Shown in pieces: positions 7,944 to 30,522 of a DNA stretch of 30,605 nucleotides. Source of the DNA: a virus; IMG/VR virus record IMGVR_UViG_3300028030_000044, positions 1 to 30,605 of that record; one strand, 5' to 3'. How positions within the stretch are numbered: the first letter of the stretch is position 1; every line of letters starts with the position of its first letter. Position numbers and translations under genes: made by a program. The notes beneath the pieces were generated by a model. The model had not been told where the DNA came from. It saw nothing but the letters and a program-made list of their open reading frames with translations, and ran no database searches.

Positions 7944-9167
7944 ATGGACTTTCCGGCACTCTATAAAGGCATTGCGGATCTCCGCCGGCACGCCCGGGCT
8001 GAAGGCTATCCCGCCCCGGCGCGGCTTACCCGAAAGCGCAAAGCGTCGATTCGCGCCATCGTATCGGCGGCTCAGGACGCGGCGGTGACACGTGCCGACG
8101 TCATGGCGGCGTTTCTTGCCACCGATATTTGGGAGACTGCGGGCCGGATTGTCCCTGTCTATGAAACGCTGGCCCGCAATGCCGCTTCGGCCTCCCGGCG
8201 GCTTGAAGCCGCGTGGCGGAAGGGCCGGCTGCGCGGGGTGAAGCACAAATATTGGACCCGGGATGCCAATGGCGACTACTGGATCGGGCGTGGCATGGTG
8301 CAGCTTACGCACCGCTCGAATTTCGCGGGACCGGCCCGTGCGGCGTGCCGGAAGCAATTTGGGATCGACATCCTCGACGACCCCGAGGCGGTTATGCGTC
8401 CAGATGTCGCAGCGTTCATCCTCGTTCAGGGGATGCTGCGCGGATGGTTCACGCGACATCGGCTCACGCGGTATTACGATTCGCGCCGCGCATTGGACTA
8501 CAAATCCGCGCGCAAGACCGTCAACCCGCGAGACCGTCACAGTTTTGAGCCTTTCAAGCGCCTTGCGGAGCGCCTGGAGCGCACGCTGCGCGCCGCCGGT
8601 ATGGATGGGCCAAGACCCGCCATTTCGCAGCGGGCGGGTTCCAGCGAGCGCTTGCGTCGCATTCAGACGCGGCTGAAAGAACTCGGCTACCATGAAGTCG
8701 GCACCGTGGATGGCATCCTCGGGCCGCGCACCATGGCGGCGGTGCTGGCCTTCAAGAACGAACATGGGCTGCCGCTCACTACGGAAATCGGAGATAACCT
8801 GCTGGTGGCGCTTGAAGCCGCCAGCCCGCGCCAATCCGCGCCTGCCCGCGCTAATGCCACGGCGGCAGACCTCGCCCAGATGGGCAGCACGGACATCGCC
8901 CGCGCCAATACGGGGATGCAGACTGGGGCGTTGGTGGCGGGCGGGGCGGGTATTGTTGGCGCGGCCAAAGAAGTGCTTCCGATCATCAAAGATCAGTCGG
9001 GAACGATGGGCGACGCTATCCGGCTGGCCGGGGAGTTCGCCACATTCATCGAGACGCATTCACTGGTGTTCGCAGGCACGGCAGGCGTGGTTATTGCGTG
9101 GGCGGCCTGGCGTGCCCGGCGCAATCGCGTCATCAAGCACCGGACAGGGGAATACCTATCACGATGA
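7944..9167 (+). CDS. Endolysin: GH19-type lysozyme with peptidoglycan-binding domain and C-terminal membrane segment
   Basis: The protein has 407 residues. Residues 50-130 carry the GH19-like catalytic region: ETAGRIVPVYETLA (Glu64 and Glu74) and GRGMVQLTHRSNF (115-127), which fit chitinase-class phage lysozymes. The residue before ETA is Trp63, where I would expect His. Residues 235-290 form a PG_binding_1 domain (RIQTRLKELGY, GTVDGILGPRTMAAVLAF). Residues 373-389 (LVFAGTAGVVIAWAAWR) form a likely transmembrane helix followed by a basic tail, unusual for a soluble endolysin. It would cut the murein glycan strand during lysis. It is followed by spanins in ATGA overlap, forming a lysis cassette. 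Confidence 0.85.
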   Translation: MDFPALYKGIADLRRHARAEGYPAPARLTRKRKASIRAIVSAAQDAAVTRADVMAAFLATDIWETAGRIVPVYETLARNAASASRRLEAAWRKGRLRGVKHKYWTRDANGDYWIGRGMVQLTHRSNFAGPARAACRKQFGIDILDDPEAVMRPDVAAFILVQGMLRGWFTRHRLTRYYDSRRALDYKSARKTVNPRDRHSFEPFKRLAERLERTLRAAGMDGPRPAISQRAGSSERLRRIQTRLKELGYHEVGTVDGILGPRTMAAVLAFKNEHGLPLTTEIGDNLLVALEAASPRQSAPARANATAADLAQMGSTDIARANTGMQTGALVAGGAGIVGAAKEVLPIIKDQSGTMGDAIRLAGEFATFIETHSLVFAGTAGVVIAWAAWRARRNRVIKHRTGEYLSR

Positions 9168-13833: not shown

Positions 13834-14426
13834 AGCACACCCCCCAAATCTGTTGCGGTTATCCCGGACTGCCGGATAAGATCATCGGGCAGTTCATCCC
13901 CCCACACGGCCCAGCCGGGGAAGGGACGGCGCGCGAAGAGCTCGACATACGGCCCGGGCACAAGACGCTGAATGCGCCGATGGATTTCTTCCGGTTTCCG
14001 GCTATGCTCCATGCGGGGCGCCATGGCTACTTGCTTCACGTTGCGGGCTATCCGTTTTGGCCGTCCCTTTGTCCCGAGCAGCACGAACTCCGCGTTCTGG
14101 CGGGTCCAGAACCCCATCCCGGTGAACGGAGTCTCCCCGTCCCTGTTCACTTTGATCCACGTGAAGGCCATGGATTTATAGGTGAAGCCCCAAGCCTTCA
14201 TGACCTCGAATGCGTCCGGGAGCATGGCGCCCGTCGCCCACAAGAACAGAGCGCAATCCTTGTCTGCCATGTCGGCCACGGGCAGGGCGCAAATATCCTT
14301 TGTCGGCATCGTGCTATAGTGATTTGACGCGCTCCGTCCAGTCCCTTTCGAGGAGCGGACGCGGAAGTCCCACGGCGGGTCCGCGAGAATTGCGCCATAT
14401 TTGCCCGGGGGGAATGGAATATTCAT
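13830..14426 (-). CDS. MT-A70 family DNA N6-adenine methyltransferase
   Basis: I chose ATG 14426, which forms ATGA with the previous gene and has GGAGGGG upstream; the 198-residue product starts MNIPFPPGKYGAILADPPW. The catalytic DPPW is at 16-19, as expected for the MT-A70 family. Later motifs (LFLWATGAMLPDAFEVMKAWGF, FWTRQNAEFVLLGTKG, KPEEIHRRIQRLVPGPYVELFAR) complete the MT-A70-like fold used by many phage adenine methylases. The likely reaction is SAM-dependent methylation of adenine in DNA. The target site cannot be read from sequence. It lies between the DnaA-domain-IV gene and the GcrA-like gene. Confidence 0.88.
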   Translation of the reverse strand: MNIPFPPGKYGAILADPPWDFRVRSSKGTGRSASNHYSTMPTKDICALPVADMADKDCALFLWATGAMLPDAFEVMKAWGFTYKSMAFTWIKVNRDGETPFTGMGFWTRQNAEFVLLGTKGRPKRIARNVKQVAMAPRMEHSRKPEEIHRRIQRLVPGPYVELFARRPFPGWAVWGDELPDDLIRQSGITATDLGGVL

Positions 14427-15007
14427 GCTGCGCCCCTCCGATGCCGGTTCGCCAGCCACATTCTGAACTCCTCTTGCCGCCCGAGGTCGTAGGCGATTCC
14501 AAGGGCGATTTCACGACCTTCTGGCCGCCGCCACAAAGTGTTGACGGCGTGCAGGATCGTTGTGTGGTGCCGCTTGTAGGCTTTGGCGAGCCTCATGGAG
14601 CTGATACGCAGCGGAGATAGCGCATAGGCCAGCGCCCACGCGGCCCGGCGCGCTTCGACCACCGCTGGAACTCGGCCCATGCCATAGAGATCCTTTTTTG
14701 ATATGCCGGTCTTCTTCGCCACAAGATCCGCGAAGGCGTCTATGCTGGCGGCGGCGGGCGTGGTCCGGCCATTCAGAACAACGAGCCGCCCGCCGCTGGT
14801 CGGCATCCGCCAAAGTGCGATCAGGACCTCGGTGCCCATTTCACCCCGTTCCATCTTGGCCATGTCGTGCTGCAAGCACAACACCGCCGCTTCAAGATGC
14901 CGGATCTTCGACTGTGCGGAAGTTATGGCACGTTGGCTTTCGGAAGCGGCCAGCCATTTCCGCGCCATCTGGCGCTGCCGCCGGTCAGGCTCAAGCATTC
15001 GGTTCAT
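14423..15007 (-). CDS. Protein with DnaA domain IV (DnaA-box-binding) fold
   Basis: I chose ATG 15007 (ATGA overlap, GGGAGGAC upstream), giving 194 residues. Residues 1-60 are helical and charged. Residues 91-158 align with the C-terminal DNA-binding domain of DnaA: FADLVAKKTGISKKDLYG, then VEARRAAWALAYAL, and the signature RHHTTILHA (146-154), which in DnaA reads DHTTVLHA. No AAA+ ATPase motifs (Walker A or B) are present. It could bind DnaA boxes or a phage origin, or compete with host DnaA. The first His of RHHTT replaces the usual Asp, which may change base specificity. A related truncated form occurs in some other alphaproteobacterial elements, as I recall, but this is not checked. Confidence 0.8.
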   Translation of the reverse strand: MNRMLEPDRRQRQMARKWLAASESQRAITSAQSKIRHLEAAVLCLQHDMAKMERGEMGTEVLIALWRMPTSGGRLVVLNGRTTPAAASIDAFADLVAKKTGISKKDLYGMGRVPAVVEARRAAWALAYALSPLRISSMRLAKAYKRHHTTILHAVNTLWRRPEGREIALGIAYDLGRQEEFRMWLANRHRRGAA

Positions 15008-15309
15008 GTGTAGTCCTCCCACCAGCGGTCTTTTATGAGGGCCTCGCTGTCTTTCCGGCGCAGCAGGTATGTCCGGGCCTGCGGACGCGACTCGCGTCTC
15101 CTGCCCCTGTTTCCGGCTGCTGGGGGCGCAAAAGAGAGCCATGCCATACCCGCCGCCAGTCCGAGAAGCGCAAAAGTCACGCTGAACGCCACCCATGCCT
15201 GGCTGTCGAACCGTCCGTCCGGTCCGGTAGCCAGCAAAGCCATGACGGTTCCGGTGGACCCGGCGGCGAAGGACAAGACCAGCGCAAGAAATAGTTGGAA
15301 AATCCTCAC
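15004..15309 (-). CDS. Small membrane protein with two transmembrane helices
   Basis: The start is GTG 15309 (GTGA overlap with the GapR-like gene), with GGAGGAC upstream. The product has 101 residues. Two hydrophobic segments lie at about 4-26 ([20 protein letters not shown]) and 39-61 ([21 protein letters not shown]). A basic tail follows ([19 protein letters not shown]). No family is recognised. It is nested between regulators and a methylase rather than with the lysis genes, so it is not a clear holin. A role in superinfection exclusion or membrane anchoring is possible but unsupported. Confidence 0.65.
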
Positions 15310-15590
15310 AGCAAGTCCTCCGATTCCGTGGCATTGGCCGAGGGGACCATGCCGAGCGCGTGCATATACAGATCGAGGATGGCTTGTTCCTCTTCCACCT
15401 CTTCCCGGTCGCGTTTTCGCTGGGCGATCAGCTTGCGCAGCACCTTGACCTCGAAGCCTTGCCCCTTTGCTTCCGCATAGACCTCCTTGATGTCAGCGGC
15501 GATGGCCGCTTTTTCCTCTTCCAGATTTTCGATACGTTCGACCACTTTCGCCAGCGCGGGGGCGATATTGCTTATTCGGGACTCAGTCAT
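15306..15590 (-). CDS. gapR: GapR/DUF2312 family nucleoid-associated protein
   Basis: The protein has 94 residues. The core [42 protein letters not shown] and [13 protein letters not shown] are almost the textbook DUF2312 signature, in the usual order and at near-usual length. In Caulobacter, GapR binds overtwisted DNA ahead of replication and transcription forks and affects chromosome replication and the cell cycle; related proteins are common in Alphaproteobacteria. Here it is coupled by ATGA-type junctions to both neighbours and stands two genes upstream of the DnaA-domain-IV gene. A phage copy may aid phage DNA topology or interfere with the host protein. Confidence 0.9.
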
Positions 15591-17673: not shown

Positions 17674-17908
17674 CGTCGAATGTCCAATTCAAGGCTTTGA
17701 TCCTGGCCTTCAGGTCTTCGATTTGGCGCCGCTTGGCGGCGATCCGGGCGGATGCAGCCCCCATCCTCCCGGAGATCGCGTAATGGTTATCGGTCATGGA
17801 CGCGGAAAGATCCGCGCTTTCCAGAAACGCCAAGTCCCGCTCTGCGATGGTAAGGTTCGCTCGCAAGACTCCGAGCTCAGCCTCTGTCTCTTTCAGGTTC
17901 GTCTCCAC
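17657..17908 (-). CDS. Small coiled-coil protein, unknown function
   Basis: The product has 83 residues, is highly charged and helical, with heptad-like spacing (LKETEAELGVLRANLTIAERDLAFL, and AAKRRQIEDLKARIKAL). The start appears to be GTG 17908, inside the end of the cytosine methylase gene (32-base overlap), with GAAAGGAAA upstream. A shorter start is possible at the internal Met in SMTDNHY. Its stop lies inside the 15-base inverted repeat. No family is recognised. Confidence 0.6.
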   Translation of the reverse strand: METNLKETEAELGVLRANLTIAERDLAFLESADLSASMTDNHYAISGRMGAASARIAAKRRQIEDLKARIKALNWTFDEAKKN

Positions 17909-19052
17909 TGTTTTTCCTTTCTATCTGCTGGATTCGTGTCCCAAGCCGCCGCATGGCGTTGACGGCCATGCTATTCCCCAACGCCTTGTAGCGCGGCGTA
18001 TCACACGCCATGCGGCCTCGATACGGAACGAGGGTCCAATCATCTGGAAATCCTTGCAGGCGCTCCGCTTCGCGCGGCGTGATCCTTCGGATGGCTCGTT
18101 CGATCAAAGCGGCTTGATACCCCTGTCCGATCTTGCCGCCCCCACAGGTTAGTGCCCCTGACACCCCCTCGGATAGCCGGACTTCGGCTCGTTCACTCTC
18201 ATGCACGGAATAAACTGCCATATCTTGCGGGGGCCCGCTGTTGAGAGTTCCCGCCGTGTTTCCGTAAGTGCAGGGGGTCTGCCGGGCGTTGAAACAGACG
18301 GGGATGAACATCGGCATTCCCGATCGGACGTGCTGGTTTTCCAGTCCCTGTTTTTTAGCAAAACAGGCTTGGAGCGTCCCCGTGACGTTCTGGATTAACG
18401 TATCATAAGTTATCTGGCCGTATTCTCCAGAGCTTCCCGCAGATGAGGGGGCATGTCCATGCGGTTGCGTGCGGTGCGGCGGAGGATCCCCCGGCAGGCT
18501 CGCGCGGTCAAATAATACTTGCGCGGCACACTGGCAGCGGGCTCCAGAATATCCAACAAGGAACACACGCCGGCGTCGCTGGGGGACGGCGCGCGGAAAG
18601 CCGTCCACTCGGATGTATTGAGCGTCCAGCACTCGCCACGCCAAAGCATACCCGAGTTTTTCCAGCGCCCCGATAATGGCTGAAAAAGCCCGTCCTCTGT
18701 CCGCTGACAACGCTCCGGGGACATTTTCCCACAAGACCCATTTTGGGCGGTAGCGCTCGACGATCTGCATGTAGACAAGGGCCAGGTTTCCTCGGGCGTC
18801 GGCGAGCCCGAGCCGGTTTCCGGCAACAGAAAAAGACTGACACGGCGATCCGCCGACGACAAGGTCAACATCGAGGTCAGGCCACTCGCGAAAATCATTT
18901 GCGTCTCCAAGGTTCGGGACATCTGGAAAGTGGTGCGACAATACCGCACAAGGGAAAGGTTCGATTTCCGAAAAAGCTACCGGCGTGAATCCAAGCGGTT
19001 CCCACGCAACCGAAGCGGCTTCGATGCCAGAGAATAGCGACAGATACTTCAT
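17877..19052 (-). CDS. DNA (cytosine-5) methyltransferase
   Basis: The protein has 391 residues and all the main C5-methylase motifs in order: SLFSGIEAASVAW (SAM site, about 5-17), GGSPCQSFSVAGNR (catalytic Cys71), WENVPG (108-113), QRRRRVFLVG (158-167), and near the C-terminus GNSMAV (359-364). The variable target-recognition region lies between about 170 and 320. It methylates C5 of cytosine in DNA, most likely to protect phage DNA from host restriction or mark it. No cognate endonuclease is beside it, so it is a solitary methylase. The start forms an ATGA overlap with the adenine methylase gene. The target site cannot be told from sequence. Confidence 0.93.
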   Translation of the reverse strand: MKYLSLFSGIEAASVAWEPLGFTPVAFSEIEPFPCAVLSHHFPDVPNLGDANDFREWPDLDVDLVVGGSPCQSFSVAGNRLGLADARGNLALVYMQIVERYRPKWVLWENVPGALSADRGRAFSAIIGALEKLGYALAWRVLDAQYIRVDGFPRAVPQRRRRVFLVGYSGARCQCAAQVLFDRASLPGDPPPHRTQPHGHAPSSAGSSGEYGQITYDTLIQNVTGTLQACFAKKQGLENQHVRSGMPMFIPVCFNARQTPCTYGNTAGTLNSGPPQDMAVYSVHESERAEVRLSEGVSGALTCGGGKIGQGYQAALIERAIRRITPREAERLQGFPDDWTLVPYRGRMACDTPRYKALGNSMAVNAMRRLGTRIQQIERKNSGDEPERDRG

Positions 19053-19933
19053 GCCAATTCTCCCAGCACGGTTGAGTGCCGTGAGAATGCCAGCAGTTCT
19101 TTTTTGACCTCGGCTTTCCCGGAGCGCATGGCAATGCGCGCCGTAGTAACCCCCGCGCGCCGGAAAGGGGCCGCAGGCACGTCTTCATAGGACACCATGG
19201 CAGGTATGCCCTGATTCTCGGCAAGCCAGCGCAGCAGGCGTTTCTGGCTATGTGCGGACCACTTGTAAAGCCGCTGCCCGGCAGCAGGGTATGGCGGGTC
19301 GAGATACACGGCGGCGTTGTCCGGGACTGTCAATGAATAGAAATCCCGGACTTGCGTCTGGACGCGGCCCCGGAAGGTCATGATCCGCTCGATGCGTGCG
19401 ACCAACGTATCAGGATACCACATGCTTTCGAGTCCGCGATTGTTATATCCGGACTTCCGCAGGCCCTTTCCAAAATCCAAAATTCCAGACGCGGCAAACC
19501 GGTTTTGCACCAGGACGGCAAACGCATAATTGGCAGGCGTGGTGTCGCGCAGGGCCAGCGCCTGCTGGACCGCGCCGGGGTCTGGCGTGAAATTCCGGAT
19601 ATACCGGATCACCTGCCTAACATGGCCGGTAGGGTCTTCAAGCAGCGTGCGCCAGAATTGAATGACGCGTGAGTCCAGATCAAGAAGAAACAGCCGGGCA
19701 ATGGCGCGGCGGTGCATGAGATAGAGCCCCACGGCAGCGCCGCCCGCAAAGCCTTCCACCAGTATCCGGCGTCCATGCGTGGCAGCCCACGCCTCGGCCA
19801 CTTCCGCCAGCCATACCTTCCCGCCGGGGTATCGCAGCGGCGTAACCATGTGGTCCTTGGCCGCTTGCTTCGGTGTTTCTTGCCGGGCCTCAAGGACTTC
19901 TCGAAGGGGGCTTTCAAACAGTGCCATAGTCAT
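19049..19933 (-). CDS. D12-class (Dam-like) DNA N6-adenine methyltransferase
   Basis: The protein has 294 residues. The SAM motif TPLRYPGGK (31-39), the GFAGGAAVGL loop (61-70) and the catalytic VYLDPPYPAAG with DPPY at 212-215 are typical of the D12/Dam group. ATG 19933 has AGGAG eight bases upstream; MALFES two codons on is an alternative start. It is coupled to the C5-methylase gene. It does not resemble the beta-class CcrM layout, so it is not an obvious GANTC methylase. Dam-like phage enzymes often methylate GATC, but the target here is unknown. Confidence 0.9.
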   Translation of the reverse strand: MTMALFESPLREVLEARQETPKQAAKDHMVTPLRYPGGKVWLAEVAEAWAATHGRRILVEGFAGGAAVGLYLMHRRAIARLFLLDLDSRVIQFWRTLLEDPTGHVRQVIRYIRNFTPDPGAVQQALALRDTTPANYAFAVLVQNRFAASGILDFGKGLRKSGYNNRGLESMWYPDTLVARIERIMTFRGRVQTQVRDFYSLTVPDNAAVYLDPPYPAAGQRLYKWSAHSQKRLLRWLAENQGIPAMVSYEDVPAAPFRRAGVTTARIAMRSGKAEVKKELLAFSRHSTVLGELA

Positions 19934-23447: not shown

Positions 23448-23532
23448 GAAGTCTACCGGGAGGCGTCAAACATGAGTTTCGACCTGCCCAAGCTACGCGC
23501 CGTGCAGCGGCATGTCAAGCCTTTGTTTCCAG

Positions 23533-23690
23533 ATTCCCAACGGGGCCGGCAATGCGGGCTTTCAAATTCCCAACGGGGCCGGCAATGCGGGTCCTCAAAT
23601 TCCCAACGAGGTTCGCAATGCGGCCGGGCCATGAGTCCCAATGGGGTCCGCAATGCGGCCGCCGCGTATAGACGGTTCCGGCAATGCGAA
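23533..23690. repeat. 33-base tandem repeat family, locus 1
   Basis: Units start at 23533, 23566, 23599 and 23634 (steps 33, 33, 35) and share the cores CCCAAC/TGGGG and GCAATGCGG; a partial fifth unit ends at 23690. The last 57 bases match 27040-27096 with six differences. The period is a multiple of three, so open frames occur on both strands (11-residue repeats such as NSQRGRQCGS), but there is no start with a ribosome-binding site, and I do not call a gene. Role unknown: protein-binding sites, origin, partition and packaging are candidates. Confidence 0.85.
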
Positions 23691-23792
23691 CCCAGGCACG
23701 CGCCAGCTTTACCATGGCGGGTCCGTCTGGATGATCGAAGGTTTTTGCGGATTTGATTTGTGACAGGCCGGGGAGCGGTGTGTCTGGCGAAT

Positions 23793-23876
23793 GACGCTAT
23801 GTTCCAGCGTCCTGGCGGGTGACGCTATGCTCCAGCGTCCTGGCGGGTGACGCCATGTTCCAGCGTCATGGCGAGA
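23793..23876. repeat. Three tandem 28-base repeats, each a hairpin
   Basis: Units at 23793-23820, 23821-23848 and 23849-23876. Each contains GACGCT, a seven-base loop, then AGCGTC (the third has one mismatch in the stem). They stand just left of the bidirectional terminator. The short sequences GTGTCT and AGACAC flank the block. They could be RNA stem-loops at the end of a transcript or an array of binding sites. Confidence 0.85.
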
Positions 23877-26196: not shown

Positions 26197-26856
26197 TCAT
26201 TCGCCGGATTTCATTTCGTCAATGTCCGCCACGGCGGCTCGCGGCACCGGCCTGAGAATCTCCAGGACGCGCTCCAAGGCGTGCAGCCCGGCGAGGCCGT
26301 GCATCGCCATGAAGTCCTGCGCCGCGTATTTGACGGCGGCGGCCCATGGCGCGGTGAAGGGGCGGTTTTCCGCCGCGTCTCGCGTGTCCATGGCCAGTGC
26401 AATGGCGTTCATCAAACAAAGCGCGTCCCTCAAGTATTCCCGCGTGGATTCCGTGGCGTCTGAACGCACCAGATGCTGCGTGGCCCATATCGCCATATTC
26501 AGCTCATTGCGCGCCTCATGCACGCGGACAGGCGCGCCCTCAAACACGGTCAGCACAGCGGCCACGTAGCGCGCGGCGGATTCGAGAGGGGTCTTGGCCC
26601 TGTCCGCGCCCTCTGTGCGCCAGACTTCGGCCCAAACTTTGTCCATCACATCGGGGCAGTCTGTGCAATTTTCGTAATGTTTTTGCCAGTCCATGCCGTC
26701 CGGCACTTCATCCGCCAGCTGCTGCGCCAGCGAGTCGGCGATGGTGTCCACCGCCATGAGATAGGGCTGCGCGTGTGCCGCAGGCAACGGACAGCCCAGC
26801 TGGTTTTCCGGGTCCAGGACCGCAGTCACATAGGTTCTCGCGTCGTCAACAATCAT
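26197..26856 (-). CDS. Uncharacterised 219-residue helical protein, first gene of the operon
   Basis: The start ATG 26856 follows GGGAGAC; the product is helical and acidic, with Ala-rich segments and a Cys pair (HYENCTDCPDVMD, about residues 60-72). No family is recognised. It is the first gene behind the leftward CtrA-box promoter (26892-26923), about 30 bases from the predicted transcription start. Its placement suggests an early or cell-cycle-timed function. Confidence 0.6.
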   Translation of the reverse strand: MIVDDARTYVTAVLDPENQLGCPLPAAHAQPYLMAVDTIADSLAQQLADEVPDGMDWQKHYENCTDCPDVMDKVWAEVWRTEGADRAKTPLESAARYVAAVLTVFEGAPVRVHEARNELNMAIWATQHLVRSDATESTREYLRDALCLMNAIALAMDTRDAAENRPFTAPWAAAVKYAAQDFMAMHGLAGLHALERVLEILRPVPRAAVADIDEMKSGE

Positions 26857-26891
26857 CTCTTTGTCTCCCTGTTGAGGTATTCGCTTTCGGC

Positions 26892-26923
26892 TTTATGCCA
26901 TATAGGTCTTAACAAATAGTTAA
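26892..26923 (-). promoter_or_regulatory. Leftward promoter with CtrA-type box
   Basis: On the minus strand TTAA-CTATTTG-TTAA (26923-26909) is followed after 11 bases by CATAAA (26897-26892). The box is a perfect TTAA-N7-TTAA, the consensus I know for CtrA in Caulobacter. The seven-base spacer is identical to that of the rightward promoter, so the two promoters are inverted copies. Confidence 0.75.
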
Positions 26924-27002
26924 TAATTTTACCAACATTTTATCCATTTTTGATTTTCTCTATCGGGCATGGCGCGGCGCGGCCCGGCGTGGCGTGGTCT
27001 GG

Positions 27003-27096
27003 AGTCCCAATGGCGTCCCCAATGCGGCCGCCGCCGAAGAGTCCCAATGGGCTCCGCAATGCGGCCGCCTTATATAGACAGTCCCGGCAATGCGAA
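27003..27096. repeat. 33-base repeat family, locus 2
   Basis: Units begin at 27003 (AGTCCCAATGG) and 27040, with the cores CCCAATGG and CAATGCGGCCGCC, followed by TATAGAC and GGCAATGCG. Bases 27040-27096 match 23634-23690 with six differences. The two loci flank the small-gene minus operon on either side. Confidence 0.85.
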
Positions 27097-27171
27097 GCGC
27101 CCGGCGCGAGGTTTTGCACGCACCCATGGCGCGCCGCACTGGCGCGTTTTTCCGCCATCCGTTTTCCGGCG

Positions 27172-27361
27172 TTAACCATGTTCGTTTACCATATTCTTTT
27201 ACCCAACGTTAACCATGCGGACGCGACGCGTTAACCATGTCCGTTAACCCAATGTTAACCATACGGAATCCTGCTACGGATTCCGGCAATGGCATTTGCG
27301 GCGCGTCCTGGCGCGATTGTCAAGCGAATTACCGCGACATGCTTAACCCGATATTAACCAT
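27172..27361 (+). promoter_or_regulatory. Array of CtrA half-sites and full sites
   Basis: TTAACCAT occurs exactly at 27172, 27209, 27231, 27255 and 27354, all on the plus strand, with variants TTTACCAT (27185), TTAACCCA (27244) and TTAACCCG (27343). Pairs at 27244-27258 and 27343-27357 form perfect TTAA-N7-TTAA. TTTA-N7-TTAA occurs at 27198-27212. The spacing between starts is repeatedly 11 or 13 bases, about one DNA turn, which favours cooperative binding on one face. Confidence 0.8.
27264..27285. repeat. 8-base inverted repeat carrying two GANTC sites
   Basis: CGGAATCC (27264-27271) and GGATTCCG (27278-27285) are complementary with a six-base loop. Each arm contains a GANTC methylation site (GAATC and GATTC). 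It stands between two groups of CtrA sites. Confidence 0.75.
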
Positions 27362-27381
27362 GTTTCCAGCTTGCGCGCGTG

Positions 27382-27414
27382 TTAACTATTTGTTAATAAT
27401 TCTATATGTATAAA
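27382..27414 (+). promoter_or_regulatory. Rightward promoter with CtrA-type box
   Basis: TTAA-CTATTTG-TTAA (27382-27396) then, after 12 bases, TATAAA (27409-27414), preceded by TG as in an extended -10. The box overlaps the -35 position, as at CtrA-activated promoters. Predicted transcription starts near 27421, with an 80-base leader before the gene at 27501 that holds three GANTC sites (27434, 27464, 27490). Confidence 0.75.
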
Positions 27415-27500
27415 TCCAATAGTGAATAGACGCGAGTCAATCGCGCGAGCCGCCGTTCTGGCGGAATCTCAAACTACAACAGGACACAGGAGTCAAAATC

Positions 27501-29270
27501 ATGAAAACAGTTTTTTCAAACGCCGAATTGGCGCACGTATGGGCGCATCAGGGGCAGGAATACGGGCGCAACGCGCGCGAATCTCTCCATTTCAGCGGGC
27601 CGGAGCTTTTCAGTTATCGGACTCTCATTGGAATGTTGCATGGGGGGCGCGCCTATCTGACAGATACCACTTATTCAATCACCACCACGTCGCACATGGG
27701 CGACTCGCGCCAGGCTGTGTCGCACATGCCGCAAGTCTATGTGCCCGATCTGCACAACCTGTTGCGCGATCCGGAAAAATGGGCGCGCGAAAATTGTGAT
27801 TATGCCCTGGACCTGGCGGGCGGCGCGACGGGGAAATTGGCCGTCAAATCGCTGATTCAGGCATGGGCGCGCACAAACAAACAATGGCGCGATCTGGTCA
27901 ATATCGCCCGCCGCGCCCGCGCGGATCGGAGCGCGGCGGTCAGGGCGGCGCGGCGGCGCGAATTTGATAAAATCCGCGCCGAATTGGCCGAATTGACGTC
28001 CAGTGCGGACGCCGATTTTGCCCCTCGCGATGCTCTGGCGCTCACTGTCCGGGAATGGAACCGTGCGCGCCCGTATTGGCGGCGCGGGCGCATGAATTGG
28101 CTTGACCTGCAATATGAGGCGGAAAAGCTGGCGGAAAGGGAGATGTCTGCTACGAGTCGCGCGCGTGGACTCCGGGCAAAGGCGCGCCGCCTGATCCGCG
28201 AGGGATATGCGCCCGCCCGGCGCTACTCGGACTCCTTTGCGCGCCGTGTCAATGGGGCGATCCGCGAAATGGATCAGATTGCGCGCCGCCGCGCCCGCGC
28301 CTTTGAGGCCGTGGCGCGCTATGCACGTTACGCGCAATATTGCGATACCATGCGCGCCTGGCGCGCCGCGCCGCGATCATGGACACTGAAGGACCTGGAT
28401 TTTTCGCGCCTGGCCGATCTTGAACGCAAATTGCGCACGGCGCGCATGGGCGGCGCACGCAACGCATGGCGCATCCTGGAGGTTCGAGAGGGAATCCGGC
28501 GCGCCTATGACGCCGCCGAATATTACGAATATGAGGCCATGCGCGCGGCGCACCATGTTGAAGGCATGGCCGCCATTGATCCGGATTCATTGCGCTATGG
28601 CGCTACTACGCCGGGCGGAGTTATGGCGGCCGCGCATGGCGCGGAATGGCGTCTGACTCGCCTGGAGACATGGCCGGATGGATTGATTCCGTGCTGGATT
28701 GATCCTGCCATTGTAGCGCGCGCCCGCGCCGTATGGGACAAGGCGGCGGCGCTTGCCCGCCGGGCGCGCATGGCGGAAAAAGCGCAAGAAGCCATGCGTG
28801 ACGCCGAATACAGGGCGGCGCAAGAGATCGCCCGCATTGAGCGCCTTATGCGGCATGAGGCATTTGCCGCCGCATATCCCGATTGGCAGGCATGGGCGGC
28901 GGGATACGCGCGCGACGAGTCATTGGCGCATGATTGCGCGTATGTCGCGCGTGATCTGCCTGGCGCGCGCGATGGAGTCTACGCCGTCTATGCGCGCGGA
29001 AATGAGGTCATCACGTCCGGCGGCGCGCACGCGCCTTTGAAAGCCGCTGTCATGGCATGGCGCAAGGCCGAATGGTGCGCCGATAATAGCCGCGAATGGC
29101 GGCGCAATGGCGAGAGACTCAAGGCTGGATTCTATGAGATTGACCATATTTCCGCCGATGGAACTATCCGCGCCGGATGTCATTTGATCCCGCTCCATGC
29201 CATGCGCACCCTGGCAGATCACCTGAGCTTGACGCGCGGCGCGCCCGCACCGAATAGCGCCGCCGCCTGA
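27501..29270 (+). CDS. Large uncharacterised phage protein (589 residues)
   Basis: The start ATG has GGAGTCAAAATC upstream. The N-terminus (MKTVFSNAELAHVWAHQGQEYGRN, then GPELFSYRTLIGML) resembles the opening of a widespread but unnamed phage protein family, which I recall only from its sequence pattern and cannot verify here. The rest is extremely Arg/Ala-rich (DRSAAVRAARRREFDKI, ARGLRAKARRLIREG) with long predicted helices. The coding sequence is dense in GCGC words and Arg codons CGC, unlike the left arm. The function is unknown. It is the first gene after the CtrA-box promoter, so it may be expressed in a cell-cycle-dependent way. Confidence 0.7.
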   Translation: MKTVFSNAELAHVWAHQGQEYGRNARESLHFSGPELFSYRTLIGMLHGGRAYLTDTTYSITTTSHMGDSRQAVSHMPQVYVPDLHNLLRDPEKWARENCDYALDLAGGATGKLAVKSLIQAWARTNKQWRDLVNIARRARADRSAAVRAARRREFDKIRAELAELTSSADADFAPRDALALTVREWNRARPYWRRGRMNWLDLQYEAEKLAEREMSATSRARGLRAKARRLIREGYAPARRYSDSFARRVNGAIREMDQIARRRARAFEAVARYARYAQYCDTMRAWRAAPRSWTLKDLDFSRLADLERKLRTARMGGARNAWRILEVREGIRRAYDAAEYYEYEAMRAAHHVEGMAAIDPDSLRYGATTPGGVMAAAHGAEWRLTRLETWPDGLIPCWIDPAIVARARAVWDKAAALARRARMAEKAQEAMRDAEYRAAQEIARIERLMRHEAFAAAYPDWQAWAAGYARDESLAHDCAYVARDLPGARDGVYAVYARGNEVITSGGAHAPLKAAVMAWRKAEWCADNSREWRRNGERLKAGFYEIDHISADGTIRAGCHLIPLHAMRTLADHLSLTRGAPAPNSAAA

Positions 29271-29333
29271 TTCCCCAGTCCCATAAGCGGCGCAATCCCG
29301 CCGCGCCCGGCGGAGTCAGAACCGGGCGCGGCA

Positions 29334-29365
29334 TTAACGGTTTATTAGGATTTTGGCGCTATAAC
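29334..29365 (+). promoter_or_regulatory. Promoter with near-perfect CtrA-type box
   Basis: TTAA-CGGTTTA-TTAG (29334-29348), 11 bases, then TATAAC (29360-29365), followed directly by GGAGTC. The element shares its order and spacing with 29780-29811. It leads to the gene at 29398, whose start is reached after a second GGAGTC at 29386-29391. Confidence 0.65.
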
Positions 29366-29397
29366 GGAGTCAGGATCAATCAAAAGGAGTCACTATC

Positions 29398-29712
29398 ATG
29401 TTTTTTGTTCTGGAAAATGAACGCGGATTTTGTAATACGGCGCGCGCTACGGCGTGGGAAACGCGCGAGGCGGCGGAAAATTACGCCGCCGATCTGAGCC
29501 GGAAATACGAAATCACGCGCGACACGCGGCGGGTAACATTGCATTTGCGCTATTGGATTCCTGACAAAAATCGAATCAATAAACCACGCCCCTCCATGCG
29601 CGATGAAGCCTGGCGTATCGTCAATCACGGTAATGTCGCCGTGCCTGAATATATAGGCGAAATCATGGTTAGCGACTCACCAACCCATCAGCGCCTCTAT
29701 AGCGGCAAATAA
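29398..29712 (+). CDS. Uncharacterised 104-residue protein
   Basis: The start ATG 29398 has GGAGTCACTATC upstream. The protein opens with MFFVLENERGFCNTARATA and contains a Thr/Arg-rich beta part (DTRRVTLHLRYWIPD). It has no recognised domain. Codon use favours CGC and GCG, like its neighbours. Function unknown. Confidence 0.65.
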   Translation: MFFVLENERGFCNTARATAWETREAAENYAADLSRKYEITRDTRRVTLHLRYWIPDKNRINKPRPSMRDEAWRIVNHGNVAVPEYIGEIMVSDSPTHQRLYSGK

Positions 29713-29779
29713 TAGCGCTCCGCCAGACTCGCCGCGCCTGTCCGGAGTCCTGTCCGGCGGCGCGGCATTTTTTCCGGCG

Positions 29780-29811
29780 TTAACGATTCTTTAACGTTTC
29801 ACGCGTATAAC
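29780..29811 (+). promoter_or_regulatory. Promoter with perfect CtrA-type box containing a GANTC site
   Basis: TTAA-CGATTCT-TTAA (29780-29794), 11 bases, then TATAAC (29806-29811) and GGAGTCAGG. The box is perfect, and its seven-base spacer carries GATTC, a site for GANTC methylation. It leads to the gene at 29847 behind a second GGGAGTC. Confidence 0.72.
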
Positions 29812-29846
29812 GGAGTCAGGATAAATCAAACACGGGAGTCAAAATC

Positions 29847-30131
29847 ATGAACAATCGTCTTGCAACAGCTGCAAACACGCTGAAAAATCGCGCGCACGTG
29901 TTTAATCGCGTGTCCGCACTGCCGGAAAAAGAGCACCTCGCAATCTATGGCGCGTGCGAATCCATCCGCCTTGCGGCCATGGACGCGGACAGAGAATCCA
30001 ACGTGAATCGGATTGTTTCCGCCCTGGACGTGATCCGCGCCCATATGTGCGCGCCGCATGTTGCGCGCGTCATGGCGGCGGCCGCGGACGTGTTGAATTG
30101 CGTCATGTATGAGATGGAATCCGCCGCATGA
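29847..30131 (+). CDS. Uncharacterised 94-residue helical protein
   Basis: The start ATG 29847 has GGGAGTCAAAATC upstream. Predicted helical throughout (KNRAHVFNRVSALPEKEHL, RESNVNRIVSALDVIRAHM). There are several Ala-rich stretches and no recognised motif. Coupled by ATGA to a 52-residue gene. Function unknown. Confidence 0.65.
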   Translation: MNNRLATAANTLKNRAHVFNRVSALPEKEHLAIYGACESIRLAAMDADRESNVNRIVSALDVIRAHMCAPHVARVMAAAADVLNCVMYEMESAA

Positions 30132-30371: not shown

Positions 30372-30522
30372 GGCATGGCCTCATGGCCTCATGGCCCCAT
30401 GGCCCCATGGCCTCACAGCCTCATGGCTTCATGGCCCCTGGCCTGACTGCCCATGTCCTCATGGCCCCAGTGCCCCATGGCCTCATGGCCCCAGTGCCCC
30501 ATGGCCTCATGGCCTCACAGCC
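30372..30522. repeat. Degenerate octamer tandem repeat (GGCCYCAT)
   Basis: About 18 units of eight bases, consensus GGCCTCAT or GGCCCCAT, with single-base variants such as CTCACAGC and CCCAGTGC. The open frame across it is low-complexity (PHGLMAP, MASQPHG) and has no support as a gene. Beyond it (30523-30605) I see only a TATAGT and a small CGCCG/CGGCG hairpin near 30582. Confidence 0.8.

Follow-up and report, generated by a model that had tools for sequence, protein, structure and literature searches.

Genome fragment and gene layout

The IMG/VR virus record IMGVR_UViG_3300028030_000044 was analyzed in full; the window referred to below is this whole stretch of DNA (30,605 bases, GC 59.5%). 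In the left third of the contig, the plus strand carries the end of a tape-measure gene, cut off at the left end, and then tail genes. These are followed by a leftward block encoding a DnaA-domain protein, nucleotide metabolism and two DNA methyltransferases, and a 644-bp gap separates this block from rightward genes that are uncharacterised. The 30.6-kb contig showed no head or terminase genes and its tape-measure gene is truncated, so the record probably represents a genome fragment. Coordinates of the features discussed are collected in Table 1, and ORFs are named by their start positions.

Within the leftward block, a 303-aa protein (14426-15334, minus strand) has a C-terminal DnaA domain IV (PF08299, 1.8e-9; partial TIGR00362), and its AAA+ part had no match. 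Judged from this domain, the phage protein could bind DnaA boxes. The two methyltransferase genes adjoin each other (17880-19933, minus strand) and are of the C5-cytosine type (PF00145) and the D12-class N6-adenine type (PF02086). No relatives of the ORF 27501, 29398 and 29847 products turned up in protein searches. The 104-aa product had no PHROG and no Pfam match above the cut-off, and no similarity was found when it was compared with the 94-aa product.

Table 1. Features of the divergent gap, its flanking promoters and the two promoter-leader modules
Feature	Position	Strand	Remarks
219-aa ORF	26197..26856	-	First of leftward block; uncharacterised
Gap between divergent blocks	26857..27500	.	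4 full CtrA boxes, 11 TTAA, 5 TTAACCAT
Leftward promoter, -10-like CATAAA	26892..26897	-	11 bases after box; weak, 4/6
Leftward promoter, CtrA-type box TTAACTATTTGTTAA	26909..26923	-	Counterpart in relative G001: TTAATCATTTGTTAG
CtrA array without -10s	27172..27361	+	Partly kept in G001
Array, TTAACCAT copies	27172, 27209, 27231, 27255, 27354	+	
Array, boxes	27244-27258, 27343-27357 (full); 27198-27212 (1 mismatch)	+	
Rightward promoter, CtrA-type box TTAACTATTTGTTAA	27382..27396	+	Counterpart in G001: TTAATAAATTGTTAA
Rightward promoter, -10 hexamer TATAAA	27409..27414	+	12 bases after box; 5/6
589-aa ORF	27501..29270	+	C-terminal domain PHROG 7247
Hairpin, 11-bp G+C stem, 11-nt loop with GGAGTC	29300..29332	+	-26.6 kcal/mol, z -2.62
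Module 1, CtrA-type box TTAACGGTTTATTAG	29334-29348	+	Second half is TTAG
Module 1, -10 hexamer TATAAC	29360-29365	+	11 bases 3' of box
Module 1, GGAGTCAGGAT	29366-29376	+	Putative discriminator and initial transcribed region; holds GANTC; same in both modules
Module 1, GGAGTC, Shine-Dalgarno of ORF 29398	29386-29391	+	AATCAAA run before; ATCATG after
104-aa ORF	29398..29712	+	Uncharacterised; presumably driven by module 1
Hairpin followed by TTTTTT	29731..29773	+	-28.4 kcal/mol, z -2.54; 5' of module 2
Module 2, CtrA-type box TTAACGATTCTTTAA	29780-29794	+	Pattern search
Module 2, -10 hexamer TATAAC	29806-29811	+	11 bases 3' of box
Module 2, GGAGTCAGGAT	29812-29822	+	Putative discriminator and initial transcribed region; same as module 1
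Module 2, GGAGTC, Shine-Dalgarno of ORF 29847	29835-29840	+	AATCAAA run before; ATCATG after
94-aa ORF	29847..30131	+	Uncharacterised; presumably driven by module 2

Two promoter-leader modules

A first-pass annotation of this DNA had described two modules of like order and spacing ahead of the start codons at 29398 and 29847, and both were found exactly as described. Their 56-nt cores are 75% identical without gaps, and their leaders differ in length by 3 nt (20 bases from GGAGTC to GGAGTC in module 1 versus 23 in module 2). The search of the remaining genome that the annotation had proposed returned exact matches to TTAA-N7-TTAR-N11-TATAAC only at 29334 and 29780; the reversed control had none in the contig. 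When 2 mismatches were allowed, three matches were obtained, the additional one being at 26892 on the minus strand, versus 0.03 expected in shuffles. Neither module had a sigma-70 promoter pair with a -35 resembling TTGACA in a consensus scan. By the position of its -10, module 1 would be transcribed from about A29372.

A second GGAGTC had been listed in the repeated module. Its presence and position were borne out, and it proved to be a Shine-Dalgarno sequence and no promoter element. It lies about 6-7 nt from the ATG, and GGAGTCA(A/C)(A/T)ATCATG precedes ORFs 27501, 29398 and 29847 and none of the other genes listed; the same GGAGTC context is found in a relative (G001, see below) ahead of its copy of ORF 27501. 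A regulatory repeat was considered for this copy and rejected, since it is the ribosome site. The first GGAGTC is directly 3' of the -10, would sit in the discriminator and contains a GANTC (CcrM-type) site. The leaders were also examined for RNA structure, which was rejected because their fold energies were no different from those of shuffles, and no family was found in the Rfam search.

Upstream of both boxes lie strong G+C hairpins, so that the repeated unit comprises a hairpin, CtrA box, -10, leader, ribosome site and small gene. The hairpin ahead of module 1, located between ORF 27501 and the module, is terminator-like and has no clear T run. That ahead of module 2 resembles an intrinsic terminator by the T run read from the sequence; the consensus terminator scan did not list it. 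No hairpin-box-leader module was detected in the other sequences searched, and the full module pattern with GGAG had 0 matches in viral contigs. A search of viral contigs for TATAACGGAGTCAGGAT yielded two chance matches only, one within an unrelated coding region (L003) and the other on an AT-rich contig, immediately 5' of a start codon (L004), neither with a CtrA box ahead. No relative reaches the modules, so both are known from a single genome.

The stretches containing the modules (29271-29397 and 29713-29846) are also rich in GANTC, with 8 sites in 261 bp versus about 1 expected (3 and 5 copies versus about 0.5 expected in each). One of these sites is inside the CtrA box at 29780. In GcrA/CcrM-dependent promoters, a GANTC methylation site matters for activity. 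The modules might therefore respond to two host signals, with CtrA~P acting at the box and the CcrM methylation state being sensed through the GANTC directly 3' of the -10 (TATAACGGAGTC), a dual reading that we regard as unlikely. If true, a promoter would fire only with the right replication or methylation state of its DNA plus a CtrA-active cell.

Distribution of CtrA-type boxes

Full TTAA-N7-TTAA boxes are strongly enriched in the contig. Five were found versus 0.08 expected in dinucleotide shuffles, a number reached in 0 of 500, even though TTAA alone is rarer than expected (27 versus 50). The enrichment is specific to N7: this spacing accounts for five TTAA pairs, and every other spacing from 0 to 24 gives at most one. 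When a single mismatch was allowed, there were seven boxes (five full and two with one mismatch), all non-coding and all within 26857-27500, 29271-29397 and 29713-29846, i.e., 3% of the contig.

CtrA-site-rich phages of low positional entropy (LPEG phages) have been defined by more than 5 sites and a normalised entropy below 0.75 (PMC9437464); their hosts are alphaproteobacteria that have CtrA, and pilus- or flagellum-dependent infection is typical of them and not required (Mascolo 2022). Normalised positional entropy of the seven sites was 0.66 versus 0.975 at random positions and thus below the published 0.75, with the qualification that our value comes from a simplified site definition (at most one mismatch) instead of the published matrix and from an incomplete genome. 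The same script gave 0.58 for phage Delta and 0.83 for MMDA13 (5 sites), and found only 2 sites in a betaproteobacterial control phage. More than 5 sites, low entropy and confinement of sites to intergenic stretches are LPEG features found here.

The divergent gap concentrates most of these elements. Its own shuffles are expected to contain 0.02 full boxes and 0.02 copies of TTAACCAT, which is the second known CtrA motif (PMC6180460); the numbers observed were reached in 0 of 5000 shuffles. Besides the promoter boxes, the gap contains a further two full boxes along with five TTAACCAT copies, so the regulon would be larger than the first-pass annotation stated. DnaA boxes were considered and rejected for the gap, in which none was found with up to one mismatch; none was found in the modules either.

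Promoter geometry

At 26892 and 27382, a box-to-minus-10 distance of 11-12 had been claimed, and we indeed observed N11 (CATAAA) and N12 (TATAAA), respectively, the -10 at 26892 being weak. Together with the modules, the -10s of the four promoter boxes are TATAAC, TATAAC, TATAAA and CATAAA at N11, N11, N12 and N11. When agreement with TATAAT is added up across the four boxes, it has a sharp maximum at offset 11. None of 20,000 shuffles agreed as well at offsets 11-12, a test that is partly post hoc because the four boxes were picked for their -10s. If the hexamer is taken as the -10, each box would span about -38 to -24, with its 5' base at about -38. The promoter boxes would thus overlap the -35 region, with a -10 downstream and a good -35 hexamer absent. 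In Caulobacter, full CtrA sites with the 5' base near -35 activate (ctrA P2 at -39), and half-sites over the -10 repress (PMC4287350).

The proposal that four promoters of one architecture form a regulon within the phage is supported by the spacing, the non-coding location, the activating position, a match to phage PhiCbK (see below) and, for two of the four promoters, by the relative G001. In our best reading of the sequence, the CtrA-type boxes common to these promoters would define such a regulon.

Conservation in a diverged relative

The tail protein search identified a sole relative, G001 (IMGVR_UViG_3300028400_000029, 26 kb), with about 66-70% DNA identity; most of its length is about 62-77% identical. 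It extends to window position 27685 and ends before both modules. Both gap-flanking promoters have counterparts in G001, in which the leftward box is followed by TATCTG and the rightward box by TAGCAA, each a weak -10 at N11. Between them, GGCGTTAACCAT-NNNN-TGTTTACCA and TTAACCCGGCGTTTACC occur at sites equivalent to the window array. These boxes and half-sites suggest that regulation of the gap was kept in the diverged relative and that individual sites turned over.

The first 61 residues of ORF 27501 (27501-27683) are 90% identical in G001, versus 75% for the tail protein. Used as a query, these N-terminal residues recovered five more contigs that are not close relatives (L025 to L029); the related domains in L025, L026 and L028 are in AT-rich contigs resembling phages of other bacteria. 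TTAA pairs showed no N7 preference in any of the five contigs, which therefore serve as negative controls.

Comparison with known CtrA-regulated phages and promoters

Concentration of CtrA boxes in phage gaps and control of phage promoters by these boxes were published in 2022 as part of "lytic deferment" (PMC9437464). What is new here is an uncultured phage that adds a repeated promoter-leader module.

The closest precedent for the single-box promoters is PhiCbK, in which gp005 and gp018 fragments bind CtrA and need CtrA for expression (PMC9437464). We extracted the direct terminal repeat of PhiCbK, in which these fragments hold TTAACGGTTTGTTAA at 2594, with CAGGGT after it at N11, and at 8835, with TAGGGT at N12. 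A third box (9900) lies 5' of gp020 and is followed by TATGGT at N11. These putative -10s are a reading made in our analysis. The module 1 box has 2 differences from the gp005/gp018 box. As in the window, PhiCbK has a single full box with a -10-like hexamer 11-12 bases on, small uncharacterised genes downstream, and some units set apart by predicted terminators. However, PhiCbK is unrelated and much larger (216 kb), its boxes are in a 10-kb terminal repeat, and it has G-rich -10s without the GGAGTCAGGAT leader.

The gap itself resembles those of Delta-like phages, which are likewise large, separate divergent gene blocks and are dense in CtrA sites. One gene in each of five Delta-like Brevundimonas phages and in one Caulobacter phage matched the C-terminal domain of ORF 27501, so that the annotated phages with this domain have Brevundimonas or Caulobacter hosts. 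In all five Brevundimonas phages, the domain gene is between the gap and terminase, and their gaps have 4-6 full CtrA boxes each. In addition, tail proteins are distantly related to those of Delta (four) and MMDA13 (five), with order kept. The position of the shared domain gene, the gap boxes and the tail order suggest that the window seems to have a layout in common with Delta-like phages and MMDA13. In contrast to the four promoter boxes here, the boxes of Delta-like phages contain G+C-rich spacers and lack a -10 at activating distance, and in Delta CtrA represses DELTA_120, which lies beside a dense array (PMC9437464). Sphingomonas phage vB_StuS_MMDA13 likewise has a gap of about 1.2 kb between divergent blocks, with a repeat, TGCGTTAACCAT, of the same motif as the TTAACCAT repeats (PMC7472734, PMC9437464). 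Unlike the window, it has a single full box, at 48763, and lacks a repeated promoter-leader module placed at a -10.

Among host promoters, Caulobacter ctrA P2 and pilA have a full site at -35 to -39 (PMC4287350, PMC11264516), and pilA has extra upstream CtrA sites that delay or restrain firing (PMC11264516). These promoters belong to host chromosomal genes, whereas the sites described here are in a phage. Based on phages that share the ORF 27501 domain and layout, the host is probably an alphaproteobacterium; the genome collection searched contained no relative and no matching host genome.

Proposed mechanism and alternatives

We consider it likely that host CtrA~P activates the four promoters and thereby directs expression to CtrA-active cells. 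Phosphorylated CtrA would bind TTAA-N7-TTAA at about -38 to -24, where a -35 hexamer is absent, and recruit host sigma-70 RNA polymerase to the -10 located 11-12 bases downstream. Each module would then produce a leader of about 26-29 nt (assuming a start 7 bases downstream of the -10) with a GGAGTC ribosome site, and one small gene, the transcription units being kept apart by the hairpins, and each of the two gap-flanking promoters would transcribe one of the divergent gene blocks. The array inside the gap probably modulates or delays firing, like the pilA upstream sites, or may repress as in Delta. Phage expression would thereby follow the activity of CtrA through the host cycle (lytic deferment). 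With at least four promoters carrying CtrA boxes, some phage genes are very likely timed by the host cell cycle.

Direction of control could differ at some sites, because those of Delta repress. The rival reading that the sites repress, or chiefly titrate host CtrA as an array disturbing the host cycle, has the precedent of DELTA_120 and is consistent with the array, which has no -10 at activating distance. It is nevertheless unlikely: in contrast to those of Delta, four boxes here have a -10 at activating distance, titration would be expected to involve more than seven boxes and some half-sites, and a decoy would not predict boxes at scattered single-gene promoters. Slightly less probable still is that TTAA-N7-TTAA is the operator of a repressor or activator encoded by the phage itself, and not a site of host CtrA. 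Several contig proteins are uncharacterised, such a regulator could lie out of view in an incomplete contig, and TTAACTATTTGTTAA, present at both divergent promoters, forms an inverted repeat as well. However, a Pfam search of 20 ORFs revealed no OmpR-type or repressor-type regulator, and the sole clear DNA-binding domain, DnaA domain IV, has no DnaA box to bind in the gap or modules. Moreover, TTAACC-N5-TTAACC and TTAACG-N5-TTAACG are direct repeats, as CtrA predicts, and the 8-mer TTAACCAT was already known as a CtrA motif (PMC6180460).

The likeness of the modules could also reflect recent duplication or chance in A+T-rich intergenic DNA, without CtrA function, and identity of GGAGTCAGGAT in both, which is more than a promoter requires, and the presence of only two copies, with 0 in viral contigs, are compatible with this. 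Such an origin is highly improbable, given that the ORFs behind the modules are unrelated, that box halves, spacing and -10 were kept between modules while intervening bases diverged, that shuffles of the gap with its A+T content held do not yield the boxes, and that AT-rich contigs with the ORF 27501 N-terminal domain show no N7 preference.

Activation by host CtrA, our preferred reading, would extend the short list of phage groups that time genes via host CtrA by an uncultured lineage and one relative of it. The phage also joins traits of separate phages, i.e., the gap array of Delta and MMDA13 and the single-box promoters of PhiCbK. With both traits in one phage, it becomes testable whether boxes at promoter distance activate while gap arrays delay or repress.

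Additional repeats

Several other repeats were detected. An iteron-like repeat of 33-37 nt, CCCAAYGRGGYCCGCAATGCGGCC, forms two clusters (23527-23690 and 26997-27096), the latter inside the CtrA gap, and G001 has counterparts of both; the clusters might serve as an origin or be bound by a phage protein. A 28-nt tandem repeat, CTGGCGGGTGACGCTATGTTCCAGCGTC, is present in three copies at 23784-23873, and about 18 tandem copies of CATGGCCT occupy 30374-30517, near the right end of the contig.
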